64,000 nucleotides of DNA. Source: Microcoleus sp. FACHB-672. Its GTDB lineage: Bacteria > Cyanobacteriota > Cyanobacteriia > Cyanobacteriales > Oscillatoriaceae. Every line of letters begins with the position of its first letter. Position 1 is the stretch's first letter. The stretch covers positions 62,001-126,000 of the forward strand of contig NZ_JACJOU010000025.1 in assembly GCF_014695725.1 (NCBI RefSeq), given 5' to 3'. Shown one piece after another: positions 6,069 through 16,481 of the stretch. A model generated the notes under the pieces. The model worked only from the letters and a program-made list of their open reading frames with translations, was not told where the DNA came from and did no database searches. The position numbers were made by a program, and so were the translations under genes.

Positions 6069-7178
6069 ATGACAAAATTGCGAGTCGGACTGTTATTTGG
6101 TGGACGATCTGGAGAACATGAAGTTTCGATTAGTTCCGCACGGGCAATTGCACGCGCCTTGAGCGATGAGCAAAACACCGGCAAGTATGAATTGCTGCCG
6201 ATTTATATCCAAAAAGATGGTATTTGGCACGCCGGCGATGTGGCACAACAAGTTTTAACGGCTGGAAAACCCCTGCAATTAGAATCCCAAACTCCTGCCG
6301 CCCAACTTCCCCCAGCCGATTCCCAGGACTTGATTCCTAGCACTTCCCAACAGCTCAACCGTTGGCAATCTCCCCCGCAAGTGGCGGATGTGGACGTTTG
6401 GTTCCCAATTTTGCACGGCCCAAATGGTGAAGATGGTACGGTGCAAGGATTGCTGAAATTAATGCAAGTCCCGTTTGTGGGATCTAGGGTTTTAGGTTCA
6501 GCGATGGGGATGGATAAAATTGCCATGAAAATGGCGTTTGGTCATGCCGGTTTGCCCCAAGTAAAATACATGGCAATTAACCGCTCGCAAATCTTCTCTA
6601 ATCCTTGTGTTTTTCCCAAACTTTGCGACGAAATTGAGCAAACCCTCGGTTATCCTTGTTTTGTCAAACCGGCAAATTTAGGCTCCTCTGTCGGTATTTC
6701 TAAAGTGCGTTCCCGCGAACAGTTAGAAGCGGCTTTAGATAGTGCCGCCAGCTATGATCGGCGGATTATTGTTGAAGCCGGTGTTGTCGCCAGAGAAGTG
6801 GAATGCGCGGTGTTAGGCAATGATCACCCCAAAGCATCGGTTGTGGGCGAGATTACTTATCAAAGTGATTTCTACGATTACGAAACCAAATATACCGAGG
6901 GAGTTGCCGGTTTAGCGATCCCAGCATCTCTGCCAGAGGCAGTCACCCAAAAAATTCAAGAAATGGCCATTCAAGCATTTTTGGCTGTCGATGCTGCCGG
7001 TTTGGCACGGGTAGATTTCTTTTATGTTGAATCCACCGGCGAAGTATTAATTAACGAAATCAATACGATGCCAGGGTTTACCGCTACCAGTATGTACCCC
7101 CAACTATGGGCAGCCACCGGCATCCCGTTTCCAGAATTAGTCGAACAACTGATCCAACTGGCACTTGAAACTAGATAG
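6069..7178 (+). CDS. ddl: D-alanine--D-alanine ligase
   Basis: A 369-residue ATP-grasp ligase that joins two D-Ala for the peptidoglycan stem peptide in the cytoplasm. The N-terminal signature [16 protein letters not shown] is intact. So are the ATP-grasp lysine/glycine loop [16 protein letters not shown] and the Mg-binding C-terminal motif [17 protein letters not shown]. The length fits cyanobacterial Ddl. The start ATG at 6069 is preceded by a short-repeat sequence containing AAAGGA, which may act as the ribosome-binding site. It converges on hetF across a repeat-filled gap. Confidence 0.96.
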
Positions 7179-7285: not shown

Positions 7286-9913
7286 TCACTCTTCGTCCTT
7301 CAATTGCAAAAGCGCCTGCCAGTCCTTGATCGCAGCTTCTGACCACATCCAATTTTTGGCAAGGGCGTCTTGTTGAAAGTTCACCGGATCTTGAGACATG
7401 ACATAGTTGCGGGTTTTGATCGCTTTGCTCAATACTGCCACCCGTTCCTGTGGGGGTAGGTTTTTGGCCGATTTCATCAGAATCAAGGCTGAACCGGCAT
7501 AAGCGGTGAGACTATCGCGACTCGCGGATGAATCCGGGGTAGCGGGTGATCCTTGTGGGTTGCCATCGGCTACCAGTTTAGTCGCAGTCCCTGAATTTGC
7601 TTGTTGCAATTTCAAAACCTGTCCCCAACTTTGGCCGGCTCGATTCAAATTGCCTTCCGCGTAGTAGGCAAAGCCTAGGGCAGTTTGAGAAAGTGACGAG
7701 TTGGGTTGCTGCCTAACAGATGCTTCCCAGCGCCGGCGCGCATCATCAACGCTGTAATCTTTGTTGCCGGCTTGGACAAACTGCCAGATCAACCTGCCGT
7801 AAAGAAAGTTAATCCTCGGTTCATCCTGTTGTTTATTCGGCAGTGCGGCGAGAGCAGCCTTTGCCTGTGGTAGTGCGCCCCGATCTAACAATGCTTCGAC
7901 AGCTTGCTGTCCTTCTACTAGGTTGCCCCTATTGAACTGTTCAACCGCATTCGCAACGACTTGCGGAGTGCTGGCTTTCTTCAGTTCGCTGGGATTTAAA
8001 TTCTCCGTGGGTGACGGTGAAAGGGTTGCCGGTGCTAAGTTTTCTACCGGCTGTTTCGACTGAAAGATTTGATCTCGAAAAGACCATAAACCCACAAGCG
8101 CCAGCAAGCTAATGCCCACAAAGCTGATCGCTAGCTTTGAGAGTGAATTCTGAAGCCTAAAGGGTGATTTGGGAGCGCTGACTTGAGCTTGAGGCAACTT
8201 TTCTGCCTCCGCCTGTCGCTGATTTTGCGGTTCCGCCTGACGCTGCCGGTCACTGCTAGGGGTTGCCGGCAATTGTCGCTGTTTCGACACGGGTGCCGGC
8301 TGGTAGCTTTCTCGGAAGTCTTCCTCGTCATCTGGAGGAATCTGCCGTTCTGCTGTGGCTGAGGCTGAATCTGAGATATCTAGCTTACGAAACAACTCAG
8401 CCACGAACGCTGAAGCGTCTTCTTCATCAGGCAAATCGTCATAGCCTAACTCGTCGGCTGAAACCTCTTCATCCCCATAATCCTCGTATCCCAGGTCATC
8501 AAAGGTATCTTCCACCTCTGCATCGTCATAGTCGCCATACAGGTCGAAATCATCTCCATCCTGTGAATTGAAGGGGATCGGCGATCTTGCCTGCCGAGTT
8601 GCCGGTAAACTCAGATCCTCTTCCGGCATTGACAAAGAGCTGTTTACATGATATTGAGAAGATAAATACCCATCAAATTCATGATGGAGATACAGAATCG
8701 GTAACGCCCAGTAAAGCTGATTAGACCCGTAAGCCGAAATCAGTCCCTGCCGCGCCCGACTCAGGCTCAGATCCACAGCAAAGCCAGAGGAAAGGTTCCG
8801 GTAAAACAGCCTCGCCAGCGTTAGGGCAACATCATCGGGAATGCGTTCCGCCATTGCCAGCACAGCCGGTATTCCGCGCTTGACGAGGGCTTCTGCTAGG
8901 TTGCGTTCTCCGGTGTCGTCTGTTGGGTGTGAGGTGGCAGCGTGGGCACCTCGGCAGGAGTTGAACACGGCCAACTGGATGCCATTGTTGGCCAGCAATC
9001 CGGCTAAATCATAACCGTTTAATGTTTCTGTCAAGCCGGTGGTTCGGCTGACGAGATAAAGTTCGCCCCCTGACGCACCTAAATTACTGTGGCCGGCATA
9101 GTGAAAAACCTGATATTTGCTTTGTTCTAGCGCTTGTGTCAGAGAAGCGCGATCAGGCTGATCCAAGATTGTCAGTTGCATTGCAGGGCCGGCAGCACTT
9201 GAGAACGAGCGACTTTGCAGTTCTTTTTTTAAATGATCCGCTTCACGCTTGAGTTCCAGACTTTGTTGGTCTGTAGGAGCGGCAAGCACCATTAAAATTT
9301 TTAAAGTCGTGGCATTGCGCTCTTTGTCGTGTCCCTCTAGGGGAGGCTGGCTTACCCCTTTAATCGGAGGTTGATAGCGGGAAAAAACCACATCCGTGCC
9401 GGTGGCAATTGGGCGGTTGCCGGCATGAAGCACTTCCCAAGGGAGACGAGGGAGGGTGCTGCCTTTAAGTCCCAAGCGCAAGCGCAGCACTTCTCGCCGG
9501 TGCTGAGCAATCCCTTGAGCCGTCATCCAGCTGTCGCGTAAGGTGCCTTGAAATAAGTAATTGTACAGGTGCCGGCCTAGGGCCACTAAGTTAACCGCTC
9601 GTGCAGCCTCACCCGGATCTGCGTCTAAATCTTCCTGTTGTGCAGAAAAGTAAGTTTGTTCGCGTTTTTTCGATGTTTTGGTTCCCTGAATGTTTGTTAA
9701 TGCCTCACCAGTTGCCAGGGTTGCATTTTCCTGCAACAAACCTAGCAATGGGTCATTCATCAAGTGACGAGCTTGGGCCAACCACTCGTCCACCGGCCAA
9801 GTCACCTGCTCTTCAGCTAAGGGCACGCCAGGGATTACCCGTTCTGTCCGCACCAGATATTCATTTCCCCCTACTGGGGTAACAGAAATATGAAATTCTA
9901 ATTCCTGAGTCAC
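7286..9913 (-). CDS. hetF: HetF-type CHAT protease, differentiation/cell division regulator
   Basis: An 875-residue CHAT (caspase-like) protein. The N-terminal 130 residues (LEFHISVTPVGGNEYLV; WLAQARHLMNDPLLGLL) match what I remember of cyanobacterial HetF. The CHAT domain spans about residues 150-415 with the dyad His275 (VFHYAGHSN) and Cys320 (LAVFNSCRGAH), so it looks catalytically competent. An acidic low-complexity stretch covers 450-500, one membrane helix lies at about 593-611 (LAISFVGISLLALVGLW), and a TPR-like helical tail follows. In Anabaena, HetF with PatA controls HetR turnover, heterocyst development and cell size. The upstream NsiR1-like array, the known hetF neighbour, supports the assignment. 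Confidence 0.82.
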   Translation of the reverse strand: MTQELEFHISVTPVGGNEYLVRTERVIPGVPLAEEQVTWPVDEWLAQARHLMNDPLLGLLQENATLATGEALTNIQGTKTSKKREQTYFSAQQEDLDADPGEAARAVNLVALGRHLYNYLFQGTLRDSWMTAQGIAQHRREVLRLRLGLKGSTLPRLPWEVLHAGNRPIATGTDVVFSRYQPPIKGVSQPPLEGHDKERNATTLKILMVLAAPTDQQSLELKREADHLKKELQSRSFSSAAGPAMQLTILDQPDRASLTQALEQSKYQVFHYAGHSNLGASGGELYLVSRTTGLTETLNGYDLAGLLANNGIQLAVFNSCRGAHAATSHPTDDTGERNLAEALVKRGIPAVLAMAERIPDDVALTLARLFYRNLSSGFAVDLSLSRARQGLISAYGSNQLYWALPILYLHHEFDGYLSSQYHVNSSLSMPEEDLSLPATRQARSPIPFNSQDGDDFDLYGDYDDAEVEDTFDDLGYEDYGDEEVSADELGYDDLPDEEDASAFVAELFRKLDISDSASATAERQIPPDDEEDFRESYQPAPVSKQRQLPATPSSDRQRQAEPQNQRQAEAEKLPQAQVSAPKSPFRLQNSLSKLAISFVGISLLALVGLWSFRDQIFQSKQPVENLAPATLSPSPTENLNPSELKKASTPQVVANAVEQFNRGNLVEGQQAVEALLDRGALPQAKAALAALPNKQQDEPRINFLYGRLIWQFVQAGNKDYSVDDARRRWEASVRQQPNSSLSQTALGFAYYAEGNLNRAGQSWGQVLKLQQANSGTATKLVADGNPQGSPATPDSSASRDSLTAYAGSALILMKSAKNLPPQERVAVLSKAIKTRNYVMSQDPVNFQQDALAKNWMWSEAAIKDWQALLQLKDEE

Positions 9914-10290
9914 AGCGTCAGTGTACTCCTGCTCCAGTCCTCAATCAAGGGCTGAAGGTTAACGTTGAAACATCGCATTTATTTCACACTCCTACGAGAG
10001 TTTGGCGAGTTTTAACTTTAACCTTCAACTGTTCTGTTGGCCTTTACGCTCAATATGCTCGTTCCTTCATAGAAGGTAACTTAGTATTCGTAGCTTCAGC
10101 CACAGTCGCCCCAAACGCTTAACAAATCCCAAAAATGTCAAGGCGCTCTTTCAGGCAATGGCCATGCCGGAACTCACTGATGAGACTATCTGCCAAGCAA
10201 AAAAGTTACCGCTTAGGCTCAACTTTTCAGCTATTACTAATACCCCTCAGTTTTATCCGGATCGCTATGGCTAACCTCAGAACAGTACAA
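9914..10290. promoter_or_regulatory. hetF 5-prime region
   Basis: This is the sequence between the hetF start and the first sRNA unit. It has no open frame. It should contain the hetF promoter or part of a long hetF leader; if the leader extends rightwards past 10340 it would be antisense to the first sRNA copy. I could not fix a promoter by eye. Confidence 0.35.
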
Positions 10291-10291
10291 T
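10256..10291 (+). promoter_or_regulatory. DIF-like promoter of sRNA copy 1
   Basis: TCCGGA (10256-10261) is followed after exactly 24 bases by TACAAT (10286-10291), a good -10 hexamer. TCCGGA is the upstream box I recall for the differentiation-related (DIF) promoters of Anabaena, including nsiR1. The same spacing recurs in copies 2 and 3. Confidence 0.6.
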
Positions 10292-10340
10292 AGATGCACC
10301 CTGATTGATAGCCTCGGCCATACAAAGCTGGGGCTTTTTT
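10291..10340 (+). ncRNA. nsiR1: NsiR1-like small RNA, copy 1
   Basis: The unit begins with TAGATGCACCCTGAT (10291-10305) and ends in a 9-bp stem with two G-U pairs (AGCCTCGGC / GCTGGGGCT, 10310-10335) and six Ts. The transcript would be roughly 45-50 nt and point away from hetF. Evidence is the conserved 5-prime word shared by three units, a terminator in each, and the position upstream of hetF, where NsiR1 is encoded in Anabaena. The true 5-prime end is unknown. Confidence 0.65.
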
Positions 10341-10473
10341 GTTTAAAGAAATTTCCCAACTCTGCCTTAACAATTTTACCTCCAAGCGATCAAAATTTTT
10401 TCAATCCTCAGATTCAAGTTGTTACCGGCAGCGCTGTTGTTTTCAGATTTTGCGTTTGTGCCGCTAAAGATTT

Positions 10474-10509
10474 TCCGGATGTCTCTATCAACCCCAAGAA
10501 CAATGAATT
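10474..10509 (+). promoter_or_regulatory. DIF-like promoter of sRNA copy 2
   Basis: TCCGGA (10474-10479) is followed after 24 bases by TGAATT (10504-10509). The -10 match is weaker than in copy 1, but the spacing is identical. Confidence 0.55.
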
Positions 10510-10511
10510 GG

Positions 10512-10565
10512 TAGATGCACCCTGATAAACTTTCCCAGCCTTACCAAGGTTGGGATTTTTTTTAT
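10512..10565 (+). ncRNA. nsiR1: NsiR1-like small RNA, copy 2
   Basis: TAGATGCACCCTGAT (10512-10526) is followed by a 10-bp hairpin (TCCCAGCCTT / AAGGTTGGGA, loop ACC, 10533-10555) and a run of Ts to about 10564. The stem sequence differs from copies 1 and 3 while the pairing is kept, a compensatory pattern that argues for a real terminator. Confidence 0.65.
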
Positions 10566-10830
10566 TAATCAACACATCCGGATCAATTTGCTCGGCAGAT
10601 GTACTTTCCCCAGATTTAGAAACTCAAAACAACGATCTTATTAATTGTTTTTTCCTTGAGCAAACTCGGTATATCTAGCAGCAAAACCGAGATTTAAAAC
10701 TTCGTTGACAAGTTGATTCCCATTGCTACACCCGACTTGTCTTCGCCAACGAAATAGAAGATTCCCTGTTAAAAAAAGTCAGCGGCTCTAAAGAATTTAG
10801 TAGATTTAGCAACCCGTTTTCTTCAATTTA

Positions 10831-10866
10831 TCCTGATGAGTGACACAAAGTGAAGAACATTAAATT
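10831..10866 (+). promoter_or_regulatory. Degenerate DIF-like promoter of sRNA copy 3
   Basis: TCCTGA (10831-10836), one base off TCCGGA, is followed after 24 bases by TAAATT (10861-10866). It is called because the geometry equals that of copies 1 and 2. Confidence 0.5.
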
Positions 10867-10868
10867 GG

Positions 10869-10920
10869 TAGATGCACCCTGATGAACGTCCCCGGCTAAT
10901 CGAGTCCGGGGATTTTTTTT
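10869..10920 (+). ncRNA. nsiR1: NsiR1-like small RNA, copy 3
   Basis: TAGATGCACCCTGAT (10869-10883) is followed by the hairpin TCCCCGG / CCGGGGA (10889-10912) and eight Ts. It shares ATTGGTAGATGCACCCTGAT with copy 2. Spacing between units is 221 and 357 bases, wider than the tight repeats I recall for Anabaena. Confidence 0.65.
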
Positions 10921-10998: not shown

Positions 10999-11226
10999 CT
11001 AATTCATCACTTCAAAGCTGGTCACCTCTAACACCGGGCCAATCATCGCCAAGGTCATCACGTCTTCTCTCACCTTACCCTTGACTTTAACTTTTTGCCC
11101 AGCTTTTAGGAGATCATTGGGTGCGCCTTGGTGGATTTCGTAGGAATCGCCTTTTTCCGTCACCAGCGCCCACGCACCTGGACCCATGCCCTTGCGTTCA
11201 ACTGTACCTTCTACGGTTAGACTCAT
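10999..11226 (-). CDS. Small OB-like protein coupled to the subtilase
   Basis: A 75-residue protein (MSLTVEGTVERKGMGPGAWALV; KAGQKVKVKGKVREDVM) made almost entirely of predicted beta strands with Gly and Lys turns, reminiscent of a small OB fold. I do not recognise a named family. Its ATG (11226-11224) overlaps the stop codon of the protease (11225-11223) by the ATGA arrangement, so the two are very likely translationally coupled. It has no signal peptide, so it should be cytoplasmic; a role in protease regulation is only a guess from the coupling. Confidence 0.7.
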   Translation of the reverse strand: MSLTVEGTVERKGMGPGAWALVTEKGDSYEIHQGAPNDLLKAGQKVKVKGKVREDVMTLAMIGPVLEVTSFEVMN

Positions 11227-13073
11227 GTGGTTGCTCCTTCTGTTTTAACGGCTAAACGGGCGAGTCCGTAGCAAAGTAAGGCATTAACAATCAGGAAACT
11301 ACGGGCACCTACACCGGCACCCAATCCCCAAACTGCCGGTGAAACCACCGCACTCACGGCTAAACAACTCGCCACGCCAAGTGTCGTACCAATTGCCAGC
11401 CATTTCCACTGGGGATGACCCAGCAGCAACACCACGAGAATTCCTGGAATTAGCACACTGGCAAAAATGGGATTCAGCATACTGCTGCCTTGAACGGCAC
11501 TTCCCAGTTCAGGAAGAGAACTGCCCATGACTCGGAAAGGCCACTGCGGCAGGTCGAAGACGTACAAACCGCGCAGGAAGAATAGCCCAGAACTGCCGGC
11601 AACTAGCCCGCTTCCCAGACTCCAACTCCAGCTGAAGGGGAAGTAACTGCGTAAAAACCAAGCTAACAAGTAGGAACCCAATACCATCGCTACCTTGGGC
11701 AACAGCGCTACAGCACCGCCATCCAACCAGAAGCGAGGGTTGAGATAACCATTATCACGCAGCCAGCGGAAGAAGTCGCGGAAGGTGATTTGCCCGTGAG
11801 TCGCTAGCTGAACCGCACTGGCAGCGTCTAATTGACCGGCACCAAAATGGTTAAGAGGATCTTCTTGGACAACCCGCGCTGATTGCAACAGCACGTTTGT
11901 AATCTCACTGGGTTCTTGAACCCCAATGGCTTTGACTAATGCAGCAACACCGGCAACGTGGGGAGATGCCATGCTGGTGCCTTGATATGCCGCAAAAATC
12001 GGTGCGCCGGTTTGCGGATCGATGGTATTTTGTAGAATTCCCCCCAGTTCACCTTCTTTGGTATCTCCACCGGGAGCTGAGATGTCTACGCCGGCTCCAA
12101 AATTAGAGTAAAAAGCTTTGTTGCCGGTGGCATCAAGGGCGGCGACGCCAATCACGTTGGGATAACGGGCGGGATAGCCGGCTGAATTATCACCTGAGTT
12201 GCCGGCGGCTGCAACAATAACCACGCCTTTTTGGTGGGCGTAGTCGATGGCTTCTTGCAGCAGTTGGCTCTCACCAGGGCCACCCAAGCTCATGTTGATC
12301 ACGTCTGCGCCGTTGTCTGCGGCAAATTTAATCGCTTCGGCAATATCGCTGATGGTGCCGCCACCGCCGCCACTAAGAACTTTCAGCGGCATGAGGCTGG
12401 CTTCGTAGGCGATGCCGGCGACGCCATAGCTGTTATTGGTAGATTGAGCGATGGTGCCGGCAACGTGGGTTCCGTGGCCGTTATCATCATCTGCTGCGAC
12501 TTTATCGTTGACGAAGTCGTAGCCGGGAACGAATTTTGTATCGGCCAAATCCGGGACTGCGCTGATGCCGGTGTCGATCACGGCAACGGTAACGCCGCTG
12601 CCTTTAGTTTCCTCCCACGCCCGTTCCATGTTAATGCTGCGGAGATTCCACTGCTTGCTATAGAAGGGGTCATTCGGGCCTTTTAAGGTGGGGTATGCCT
12701 CGCCAGGACGGTTGTTTGCACCGGCTACCCATGAGGCAACGTTTGTCTGTTCTGGCAACCCGTAGACATAATTCGGCTCAATAAATTCTGTAGACTTAGC
12801 CAGTTCAGACTTTCTTAGGGTTTTCAGTAATCGCCGGTCGCCCTTAATAATGTAAACATTGTCTGCGGCTGAATATTCGCTATTCAGGCGGGGTGCAGCG
12901 TTATACTTTTGGGAAATTGTCTCCAGTTGGCTGTCTATCTGAGCGGCTGGGATATCTTCGCGGAAATCCAGCACAATGCTATCAAATGTACCTTGGGTGG
13001 CTAAACCCTTGAAGTTAAATAAGGCCCAGCCTATCCCGATTACAAATAGGCACAGAAGAAAAAATTTTCTCAT
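11223..13073 (-). CDS. Membrane-anchored subtilisin-like S8 serine protease
   Basis: A 616-residue protease. A signal or anchor helix covers residues 2-20, followed by a propeptide-like region (about 30-105). The peptidase S8 domain has the full triad: Asp167 (AVIDTGI), His200 (DNGHGTHVAG) and Ser367 (GTSMASPHVAG), with the oxyanion Asn at about 292 (AAAGNSG). After residue 440 come several hydrophobic segments (LLPKVAMVLGSYLLAW, IFASVLIPGILVVLLLG, LGVASCLAVSAVV). The catalytic domain is therefore tethered by a multi-span C-terminus, probably on the outer face of the plasma membrane or in the thylakoid lumen. The multi-span tail is unusual for subtilases. Confidence 0.92.
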   Translation of the reverse strand: MRKFFLLCLFVIGIGWALFNFKGLATQGTFDSIVLDFREDIPAAQIDSQLETISQKYNAAPRLNSEYSAADNVYIIKGDRRLLKTLRKSELAKSTEFIEPNYVYGLPEQTNVASWVAGANNRPGEAYPTLKGPNDPFYSKQWNLRSINMERAWEETKGSGVTVAVIDTGISAVPDLADTKFVPGYDFVNDKVAADDDNGHGTHVAGTIAQSTNNSYGVAGIAYEASLMPLKVLSGGGGGTISDIAEAIKFAADNGADVINMSLGGPGESQLLQEAIDYAHQKGVVIVAAAGNSGDNSAGYPARYPNVIGVAALDATGNKAFYSNFGAGVDISAPGGDTKEGELGGILQNTIDPQTGAPIFAAYQGTSMASPHVAGVAALVKAIGVQEPSEITNVLLQSARVVQEDPLNHFGAGQLDAASAVQLATHGQITFRDFFRWLRDNGYLNPRFWLDGGAVALLPKVAMVLGSYLLAWFLRSYFPFSWSWSLGSGLVAGSSGLFFLRGLYVFDLPQWPFRVMGSSLPELGSAVQGSSMLNPIFASVLIPGILVVLLLGHPQWKWLAIGTTLGVASCLAVSAVVSPAVWGLGAGVGARSFLIVNALLCYGLARLAVKTEGATT

Positions 13074-14090: not shown

Positions 14091-15371
14091 TTATTTCGCG
14101 GGCCGCCGCTTTCGCAGAAATTCCGGCAGATCCAAGTCCCCGCCCACTTGTTTTTGCGGTTCTGGTGCAGCAGGAGCAGCAGCAGGCGGCGGTGGGGTTG
14201 CCGGCTTCGCAGGGGTTCTTGGCTGCACAGCCACCCTTGCCGGGGGAATGCTGGCTTGAGGTTCGCCGGTAAATCCAGTGGCGATGACGGTAATTCTAAT
14301 CTCGCCTTGCAGTCGCTCATCAATCACCGCACCAAAAATGATATTGGCATTGGGATCGACTGCTTCATAGATAATGTCGGCTGCGGAGCTAACTTCGTGC
14401 AAGGTGAGATCGGTGCCGCCGGTGATGTTGAAGACTACGCCCTTCGCCCCTTCTATGGAAGATTCCAGTAAGGGAGAGGAAATGGCTGCCATTGCGGCTT
14501 CACCGGCTCTCGATTTGCCAGAGCCAATGCCAATGCCCATCAAGGCTGAGCCGGCATCTGCCATGACGGCGCGAACATCGGCAAAGTCTACGTTGACTAA
14601 GCCGGGAATGGTGATGATATCAGAAATGCCCTGTACCCCTTGACGCAGAATATCATCGGCAGAGCGAAATGCTTGTTGCACCGGCGTATCGGGTGCAATC
14701 ACCTCTAGCAGCTTATTGTTAGGAATGATGATCAGGGTATCAACGCGACTTTGCAGGGCGGTAATGCCTTCTTCTGCTTGGCTGGTGCGACGACGTCCCT
14801 CGAAGGTAAATGGGCGAGTCACGACGCCAACGGTGAGGGCACCGACTTCTTTGGCCACTTCCGCAACGATGGGGGCCGCGCCAGTGCCGGTGCCGCCTCC
14901 CATGCCGGCTGTAATAAACACTAAATCGGAGTGCGCTAGCGCGTTGGCGAGTTCGTCACGAGATTCTTCTGCGGCTTTTTGGCCAATCGCCGGGTTACCA
15001 CCGGCACCGAGTCCACGCGTCAGCTTTTGTCCGATTTGTAAGCGTCTGGCTGCGTCCGAGTGAGTCAAAGCTTGGGCATCGGTGTTAACCGTCCAGAATT
15101 CCACCCCTGACACATCACTGGCAATCATGCGGTTAATGGCATTGCCACCGCCGCCGCCGACACCGATCACTTTAATTCTAGCTATGCTGCTGGGCACAAT
15201 ATCGCTACCCCTAGATTCTTCCCCAGCCATGCTTTTTGCATCCCTAGTTTGACTCGCGTATGATCCAGCGTTGCCGAAAGGATTCGAGTTGTCCACTGCC
15301 GGCGGAAAACCTGCTTGTCCTTGAGAATGCGGGCTTTCATGCTCTTGTCCCATTTTACTATTAAGTGTCAT
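14091..15371 (-). CDS. ftsZ: Cell division protein FtsZ
   Basis: A 426-residue tubulin-like GTPase that polymerises into the cytokinetic ring. The core starts at about residue 62 ([22 protein letters not shown]). The GTP-binding signature GGGTGTG lies at 158-164, and the T7-loop region is present. A Pro/Ala-rich linker precedes the C-terminal conserved peptide [12 protein letters not shown] that binds FtsA/ZipN-type partners. About 60 extra N-terminal residues are polar, as in other filamentous cyanobacteria. It follows ftsQ in the same direction, the usual ftsQ-ftsZ order, with 192 bases between them that can hold its own promoter. Confidence 0.98.
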
Positions 15372-15563: not shown

Positions 15564-16481
15564 TCAGGGCGCTTTCGTTTGCGCCGGCACGTTAGCCTGT
15601 TGCAGTTTAATCGCAGGAGATTGGGGATTTTTCAGGTCAATATAGGCAATTTGGGTGTAACGCGGGTGTTTGGGTAATTGACGCATTTTATCGAGGGCGC
15701 TTAGTTGCGCGGCAAACTTGGAACTGTAGGGACCCAAATGAACGGTTCCCAACTCGGTTTTCAAGATTAAATTCGTGGGATCTTGCCAATCAATTTCAGA
15801 CACCTTGACGGGAGATCTCGAGAGTTCTTGATACAGGGGTGGCCAATCACTCCGGTACACGTCGGGGTTGCCGATCACTTTCAACGTGGGCAGAGGCAGT
15901 GTGCGATCAAAAGATGTGTAGCTTTTTAAAGGCGTCCACCAGCCATTTTTATCTAGTACGCCTAAATTCGAGGCGGTTTCTACCTTTGTTGGGACTGCCG
16001 GCGCTGGCTTTGGGGCAACTGCGGGGGCGTCTGTCGTTTCCTTCACAGCTTTGGGGTTGGCGACGACCTCAGCGGGAGCTGCCAGTTGAGAAAGCGCTAC
16101 AGGATAGCGTTCCTTGACTCGCACCGTCAAGCCGGCCGGCAGTAGATGCCGGGTAACCGTGGCTTGGGCGATAGGTGCGGCAGACTCTAGTTTTTCTGCG
16201 ATCGCTTCGGGTTGCAGCCGCATCAGCGATTGCGGATAATCGAGGGGCAGCAGCGACCGAACTGTTTGAGCAGAAAGGAATTGATTGCCTTCGATCTCCA
16301 CCTGTTCCGGTTCATAAATGACCCAACCTGGTCGGGTTGACACCCACATTAAGCCGCCGGCTAAACAGCTAACCGCCACAGTTTGCCAGCACCTTTGAAA
16401 AAATTTTACACGTCTTGAGCGCCGCAACTCTTGGCGACGCCGGCCTAATTCTGACTGAGAGACTGATGCGAAGCTAGCCAT
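15564..16481 (-). CDS. ftsQ: Cell division protein FtsQ/DivIB
   Basis: A 305-residue bitopic division protein. A basic cytoplasmic tail (residues 1-30, ELGRRRQELRRSRR) is followed by one membrane helix (about 32-50). A POTRA domain comes next (VEIEGNQFLSAQTVRSLLPLDYPQSLMRLQPEAIAEKLE), then the FtsQ beta domain (IDWQDPTNLILKTELGTVHLGPY). A Pro/Ala-rich insertion at about 145-165 interrupts the region between the two. It would link the cytoplasmic ring to the periplasmic septal synthesis machinery. It lies directly upstream of ftsZ. Confidence 0.93.
   Translation of the reverse strand: MASFASVSQSELGRRRQELRRSRRVKFFQRCWQTVAVSCLAGGLMWVSTRPGWVIYEPEQVEIEGNQFLSAQTVRSLLPLDYPQSLMRLQPEAIAEKLESAAPIAQATVTRHLLPAGLTVRVKERYPVALSQLAAPAEVVANPKAVKETTDAPAVAPKPAPAVPTKVETASNLGVLDKNGWWTPLKSYTSFDRTLPLPTLKVIGNPDVYRSDWPPLYQELSRSPVKVSEIDWQDPTNLILKTELGTVHLGPYSSKFAAQLSALDKMRQLPKHPRYTQIAYIDLKNPQSPAIKLQQANVPAQTKAP

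Follow-up and report, generated by a model that had tools for sequence, protein, structure and literature searches.

The locus considered here raises the question of what three short repeated units, each resembling a gene for the small RNA NsiR1, are doing upstream of hetF in a cyanobacterium that seems to make no heterocysts. To our knowledge, the role of HetR in filamentous cyanobacteria without heterocysts is an open question. The window, by which we mean the whole stretch of 64,000 nucleotides of Microcoleus sp. FACHB-672 DNA that was analysed, carries hetF on the minus strand (7286..9913, GTG start). Its product, a CHAT-domain protein, was identified with NF045509 (CellDiv_HetF, E=1.4e-283), with PF12770 (CHAT) and by alignment with 21 relatives; its best match to NF045509, 943 bits, lies under the model cut-off of 1200. 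The units occupy 10288-10920 on the plus strand, upstream of hetF and divergent from it, and the Rfam match to unit 1 starts 375 bases upstream of the hetF start codon.

A preliminary description of this DNA had pointed to a 15-base word present three times, each copy followed by a well-paired hairpin with a T-run, and had taken the units for an NsiR1 system with DIF-type promoters upstream of hetF. The word, TAGATGCACCCTGAT, is found exactly at 10291-10305, 10512-10526 and 10869-10883, always on the plus strand; composition alone would yield about 0.0005 exact copies of its 14-base head per window and about 0.05 per genome. With the Rfam NsiR1 model (RF02399, gathering score 39 bits), unit 2 (10509..10563, head 10513-10526) and unit 3 (10866..10920, head 10870-10883) score 61.5 and 54.6 bits and pass, while unit 1 (10288..10342, head 10292-10305) falls just under the cut-off at 36.5 bits. 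Folding gives a hairpin and then a T-run in all three, with energies of -15.1, -16.1 and -17.4 kcal/mol for units 1 to 3 and modest shuffle z-scores of -1.45, -2.32 and -1.29. The terminator stems lie at 10310-10335 in unit 1 and 10533-10555 in unit 2, and in unit 3 the T-run reaches 10920. Unit 3 is missing from the output of a stricter terminator scan, which does report units 1 and 2; a permissive detector finds a stem in each. Thus the word, the hairpins and the assignment to NsiR1 are all borne out, with unit 1 lowest in Rfam score.

Each unit is preceded on the plus strand by a DIF-type motif: TCCGGA at 10256..10261 (-36 from the head) for unit 1, TCCGGA at 10474..10479 (-39) for unit 2 and TCCTGA at 10831..10836 (-39) for unit 3, so that the unit 1 promoter is 3 nt nearer the head than the other two. 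The preliminary description had placed a -10-like hexamer 24 bases beyond each motif. Such hexamers do exist (TACAAT, TGAATT and TAAATT), but the best conserved block among the 327 units with this kind of promoter, described below, is AGAAnA at -16 to -11, about 17 nt past the motif, and this block is the likelier -10 element. In the window it would be AGAACA at 10279..10284, 10497..10502 and 10854..10859 (plus strand). Because the TTAATT-like block adjoining the head is partly conserved too, the choice between the two is not certain. A further TCCGGA, at 10577-10582 in the spacer between units 2 and 3, has no head in register and is possibly the remnant of a decayed copy; it is altered in the nearest relative, locus L058. 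Identity to L058 is 97.7-98.9% over the units, 100% over the heads and 97.7, 96.9 and 94.0% over the spacers, so close that the comparison makes no strong case for conservation.

The host genome (6.37 Mb, 99.84% complete) holds more such units. A search with AGATGCACCCTGAT found 10 exact places and five with one mismatch, and the reversed pattern none. Three of the ten exact siblings are in the window, four on contig C12, one on C7 and two on C33. They share a 14-nt 5' head, AGAUGCACCCUGAU, that is mostly unpaired, whereas the terminator stem is variable. A stem and T-run follow the head in all ten, a DIF motif stands at -36 to -39 in seven, and the other kind of element, GGGN5CCC, in three. 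The C12 units form a tandem array of four with TCCGGA or TCCTGA; they share with unit 1 the sequence TTGAT after the head (the repeated T being the last head base), and in three of them this extends to TTGAT[AG]GC. The C7 unit lies between gatB and argJ and the two C33 units are near purD, with the GGGN5CCC core at -42 for C7 and at -36 and -34 for C33. The palindrome before the C7 unit, GAGGGGTTTGACCCCTC, agrees at 15 of 17 bases with the HetR-binding site of hetP, GAGGGGTCTAACCCCTC, as given in the accessible part of PMC4192349; the C33 sites are less like it (13/17 and 8/17 as aligned). Five host units exceed the Rfam NsiR1 cut-off, among them three of the four C12 copies (41.9-43.6 bits), and the C7 copy (34 bits) and one C33 copy (32 bits) fall under it. 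The C33-type pair (L342) corresponds to four tandem copies, three nearly identical, in the near relative G145 (L343). The preliminary description had held that dispersal of the word elsewhere in the genome would count against an sRNA reading. The word is indeed dispersed, but this recurrence is not a refutation, because a terminator-like hairpin follows all ten exact copies and each is an sRNA-like unit. The second array, the HetR-core units and the class-wide tie to HetR reported below were not part of that description.

Inspection of a larger sample suggests that the siblings are probably wired to HetR through one of two promoter types. This sample comprises 483 distinct exact-head units in the loci fetched by then, which are related to one another and in which hetF loci of Nostoc relatives are over-represented. 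TCC[GT]GA is carried by 327 of them (class A) and GGGN5CCC by 83 (class B); none carries both and 73 carry neither. Among the 73 are variants of the DIF motif, palindromes that have degenerated and at least six chance matches. When scored with a wider search window, the L241 unit in G006 shows both motifs. In class A the motif is exactly at -39 in 245 of the 327 units, and the consensus has AGAAnA about 17 bases after TCCGGA, followed by TTGGT and the head. The class B consensus is GGGGTGACACCCC, centred near -37, followed by TATAnT at about -15 to -10; a HetR-site core sits in the -35 region, and the -10 is usually of the TATA type. A terminator was found by the permissive detector in 476 of the 483 units, compared with 254 of 1715 random positions. 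In the host, class A is made up of the hetF cluster and the C12 array, and class B of the C7 unit and the two C33 units. DIF1 promoters are HetR-dependent in Nostoc, according to the portion of PMC10287535 at our disposal. Two loci in otherwise positive genomes, L217 and L238, look like chance matches. Arrays away from hetF were also seen in Symploca and Moorena (L199 and L200 in G153, L205 in G161, L207 and L208 in G160), where 3 to 10 copies follow one another at intervals of about 170 to 240 bases, with some larger gaps; each array is of one class, and one L200 copy has a variant motif.

Class B behaves as a conserved RNA in its own right. An alignment of 32 class B sequences shows a constant head and a 9-pair stem with changes on both sides in four pairs, the constancy of the head being partly built in because the units were collected by exact head; head variants do occur in loci found through hetF and in family f26. 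A covariance model built on class B finds a match at E 0.01 in all 31 genomes of the named set, that is, the host and 30 genomes reached through named loci, and in 29 of them at 1e-12 or better. Across the class, in a run with stricter filters, the model at 1e-8 matches 189 of 388 genomes, namely 181 of the 196 that have HetR and 8 of the 192 that lack it; 15 of the 196 HetR genomes have no match at that threshold. The weakest matches may be class A units, because the model includes the shared head. The flanking sequence retrieved includes gatB or argJ at 23 of 29 named-set model loci and 24 of 30 class loci, and the names of the records cover both heterocystous and non-heterocystous genera; in a broader class B set that includes arrays elsewhere, the linkage holds for 34 of 67 units. 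Reading 33 units in the 30 class loci, some of them seen before, we found the full core in 29. It is only partial in G087, G129 and G282, where HetR is present, and is absent from G037, which is listed as 100% complete, has no detected HetR and has kept the gatB-argJ sRNA while its palindrome is gone. The units of G296 and G301, which lack HetR, are likewise without a palindrome. Broken palindromes also occur in Nostoc parmelioides, Anabaena azotica, Nostoc FACHB-110 and MAG M7585. The Rfam NsiR1 model was run on 14 loci; 13 of these contain units that are class B or class-B-like, and of the 13 only L150 (39.7) and L182 (43.5) passed. We call class B a sibling of NsiR1 rather than NsiR1 itself because the Rfam cut-off is mostly missed and the host copies reach 34 and 32 bits.

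How closely do these RNAs follow HetR? The exact head occurs in 30 of the 31 named-set genomes, with up to 23 copies in one genome. Among 388 genomes of the class, 209 have the exact head, 196 have HetR and 195 have both; the head is therefore present in 195 of 196 genomes with HetR and in 14 of 192 without it, although these counts are not phylogenetically independent, and a Fisher P value, which disregards phylogeny, was left out of account. The reversed-head control gave 0 in every genome among those listed. The sole HetR genome without the exact head, G070, is 68% complete. With the host HetR protein as query, no HetR was found in any of the 14 head-only genomes. The single heads of four of these (G038, G063, G130 and G236) were set aside as chance matches, having neither promoter motif nor terminator, and three (G037, G296 and G301) have the units without palindrome mentioned above. 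Units with promoters were found in G006, G273, G339, G398 and G416, and a TCCTGA unit in G021. Class B cores are kept where neither the Pfam nor the host-protein search finds HetR in G006, G093, G339, G398 and G416, of which G006 is 99% complete and the others are drafts of 62-95% (G093, 62%), and class A units are kept without detected HetR in G021 (99% complete) and G273 (98%).

The preliminary description had argued that, if the host makes no heterocysts, the RNA has a role beyond them, and had suggested looking for hetR in the genome. The host has one hetR match, encoding a protein with both HetR Pfam domains, and no nifH over the family cut-off (best model match E 5.6e-65), so the condition seems to apply. 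The hetF locus nearest to that of the host among named ones belongs to a MAG labelled Microcoleus vaginatus, is 94% identical and has three units spaced as in the window; Microcoleus, the genus of this relative, we take to be non-heterocystous. For the wider count, an E value of 0.001 is too loose for nifH, because 387 of 388 genomes match the model at that level. We therefore counted matches over the cut-off (110 genomes) together with ten long partial matches among the matches listed, a tally that may miss a few split or partial genes. The host falls in neither set. By this measure 114 of the 196 HetR genomes lack nifH, and the exact head is found in 113 of these and in all 82 with nifH. On the preferred reading the sibling family is bound neither to heterocysts nor to nitrogen fixation, and it is probably older than either. 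In eight genomes (G208, G387, G366, G087, G275, G242, G255 and G097) the nifH matches end near residue 140-148, and in family f6 several such copies have an in-frame stop, as if interrupted by an insertion element.

An alternative account is that the sRNAs are real but answer nitrogen or other stress through regulators other than HetR, and that their co-occurrence with HetR reflects the shared ancestry of filamentous clades. HetR and the heads do have a common phylogenetic range, recognition of the DIF motif by HetR is putative, several palindromes are degenerate, and seven genomes retain class A or B promoters with no HetR detected. Within the host's own order, however, the head is present in 37 of 37 genomes with HetR and in 3 of 25 without, and the units of those three have no palindrome. 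We consider control through other regulators unlikely, and infer that HetR controls the siblings.

A second alternative confines the hetF-linked units to regulation of hetF in cis, as antisense RNAs, with the head elsewhere simply inherited by duplication and without function in trans. To examine the hetF loci we took the best 80 of 391 relatives, all 80 of which were inspected, and searched the 2.5 kb upstream of each hetF for antisense heads, allowing one mismatch. Twenty-two loci come from organisms taken as non-heterocystous by name. Eighteen of these carry at least one antisense head: a single copy in 16, three in the near relative and five in an Oscillatoriaceae MAG. In two of the four loci without one, the upstream sequence extends for no more than 256 bases. 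In the other 58 loci the head is present in 56, with three or more copies in 51 and a maximum of 13. Such persistence beside hetF speaks for the cis account, and in Nostoc nsiR1.1 is reported, in the material available, to overlap the hetF leader. Against it, the head also recurs at a distance from hetF, in class B units with different stems and promoters. Moreover, hetF as the sole target of the head is disfavoured because the head is retained in G037, where no HetR was detected and the best HetF match (2.2e-36) is not convincing. The part of PMC9045159 that we could consult describes repression of alr3234 in trans by NsiR1.4, at its translation start, in Nostoc. Finally, the signal of a hetF promoter-gfp fusion in Anabaena changed little when the -10 box of nsiR1.1 was replaced or deleted (PMC8406250, in its accessible portion), although a translational effect may escape such a readout. 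On balance a role in cis only appears quite improbable. The remaining alternative, that the heads belong to a dispersed repeat or mobile terminator element with no regulatory function, would account for the many copies, the tandem arrays and the 23 exact copies in one genome, but it is rejected as scarcely credible, given the terminators in 476 of 483 units, the promoter elements held at near-fixed distances, the usual position of class B model matches beside gatB or argJ (23/29 and 24/30 loci) and the fact that the head follows HetR.

We next ask what the siblings might do. In Nostoc, NsiR1 is HetR-dependent and inhibits translation of hetF as an antisense RNA, as stated in the available part of PMC9045159. 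By analogy, in the host the siblings would be transcribed together when HetR is active, the stem would end transcription of each sibling, and the head would pair with target leaders and block their translation. A wobble-tolerant search for the head complement in 10 genomes gave counts above the reversed control in all 10. This excess is partly due to the sRNA genes themselves and, in G022, includes many copies of TTAGGGTGCGTT; no target was called among the matches listed. Of ten additional places inspected in G019, G050, G037 and G201, five look like head variants and five like chance, and the head-variant loci with terminators are L331, L332, L334, L335 and the three-copy L336.

The units next to hetF would have a further effect: should hetF be transcribed from a start beyond them, they would run antisense to its leader. 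In Anabaena, hetF starts at -256, inside nsiR1.2, and HetF is a component of the divisome (both from PMC8406250, as far as its accessible text goes). A promoter scan for the hetF start in the window found none, the one plus-strand match comparing with 1.9 expected. Antisense pairing there would lower the amount of HetF, a divisome protein affecting the HetR level, with consequences for division and for HetR itself. The genes around hetF, between 6069 and 16481 in the window, fit HetF as a division protein: a D-Ala-D-Ala ligase (6069-7178), ftsZ (14091-15371) and an FtsQ-type POTRA protein (15564-16481). Just past the sRNA cluster, at 11223-13073, is a subtilase with a C-terminal DUF5942 domain.

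As a whole, these results make it likely that the three units are genuine nsiR1 genes and belong to a family of ten sibling sRNAs in this genome, wired to HetR and sharing a near-constant pairing head, the hetF-proximal ones maybe acting also as antisense RNAs to hetF. With confidence only a little better than even, we would go further and propose an old family of sibling sRNAs, with NsiR1 as its hetF-linked branch, that forms a main output of HetR with or without heterocysts. The most conserved member would be the gatB-adjacent RNA, driven directly by a HetR palindrome that decays where HetR is lost, and the head would make the siblings converge on shared targets. If a near-constant head does bring about this convergence, HetR's original role would therefore have been that of a post-transcriptional switch of cell state or division, later recruited for heterocysts. 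An sRNA family that follows HetR this closely (195 of 196 genomes), and that has in one class a HetR-site core at an almost constant position, offers a directly testable ancestral regulon; NsiR1 then moves from a heterocyst marker to a member of a general HetR circuit, through which cell state may be connected with the division protein HetF.

It remains to compare these units with systems already described. Finding an NsiR1 in cyanobacteria without heterocysts is not entirely without precedent, because an NsiR1-like RNA of Limnospira is in print: the accessible text of PMC8400943 describes RNA162 of Limnospira indica PCC 8005, 57 nt long, as resembling NsiR1. Like the host units, it is an NsiR1-like RNA from a cyanobacterium described as without heterocysts, and it comes with expression data; it differs in concerning one strain under gamma radiation. 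A literature search, whose reach did not extend to the founding NsiR1 papers, returned no paper on the head sequence, no name for the gatB-adjacent RNA, and no account of a HetR-core class, of gatB/argJ synteny or of a family-wide tie to HetR. The HetR palindrome of the hetP promoter (PMC4192349, from the part available) is matched at 15 of 17 bases at the C7 unit, and its core recurs in 83 of 483 units; unlike the hetP site, the candidate palindrome here precedes a small RNA, lies in the -35 region and is found also in genomes without nifH. A close counterpart is NsiR1 of Nostoc sp. PCC 7120, a transcript induced by nitrogen stress, which has the same head sequence, a size near 60 nt, the terminator hairpin, individual DIF-type promoters and the same position upstream of and divergent from hetF. 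There, 12 copies are in tandem, whereas in the host there are three widely spaced ones whose stems have diverged, and the host further differs in having a second array away from hetF, three siblings behind HetR-core sites and no detected nifH.
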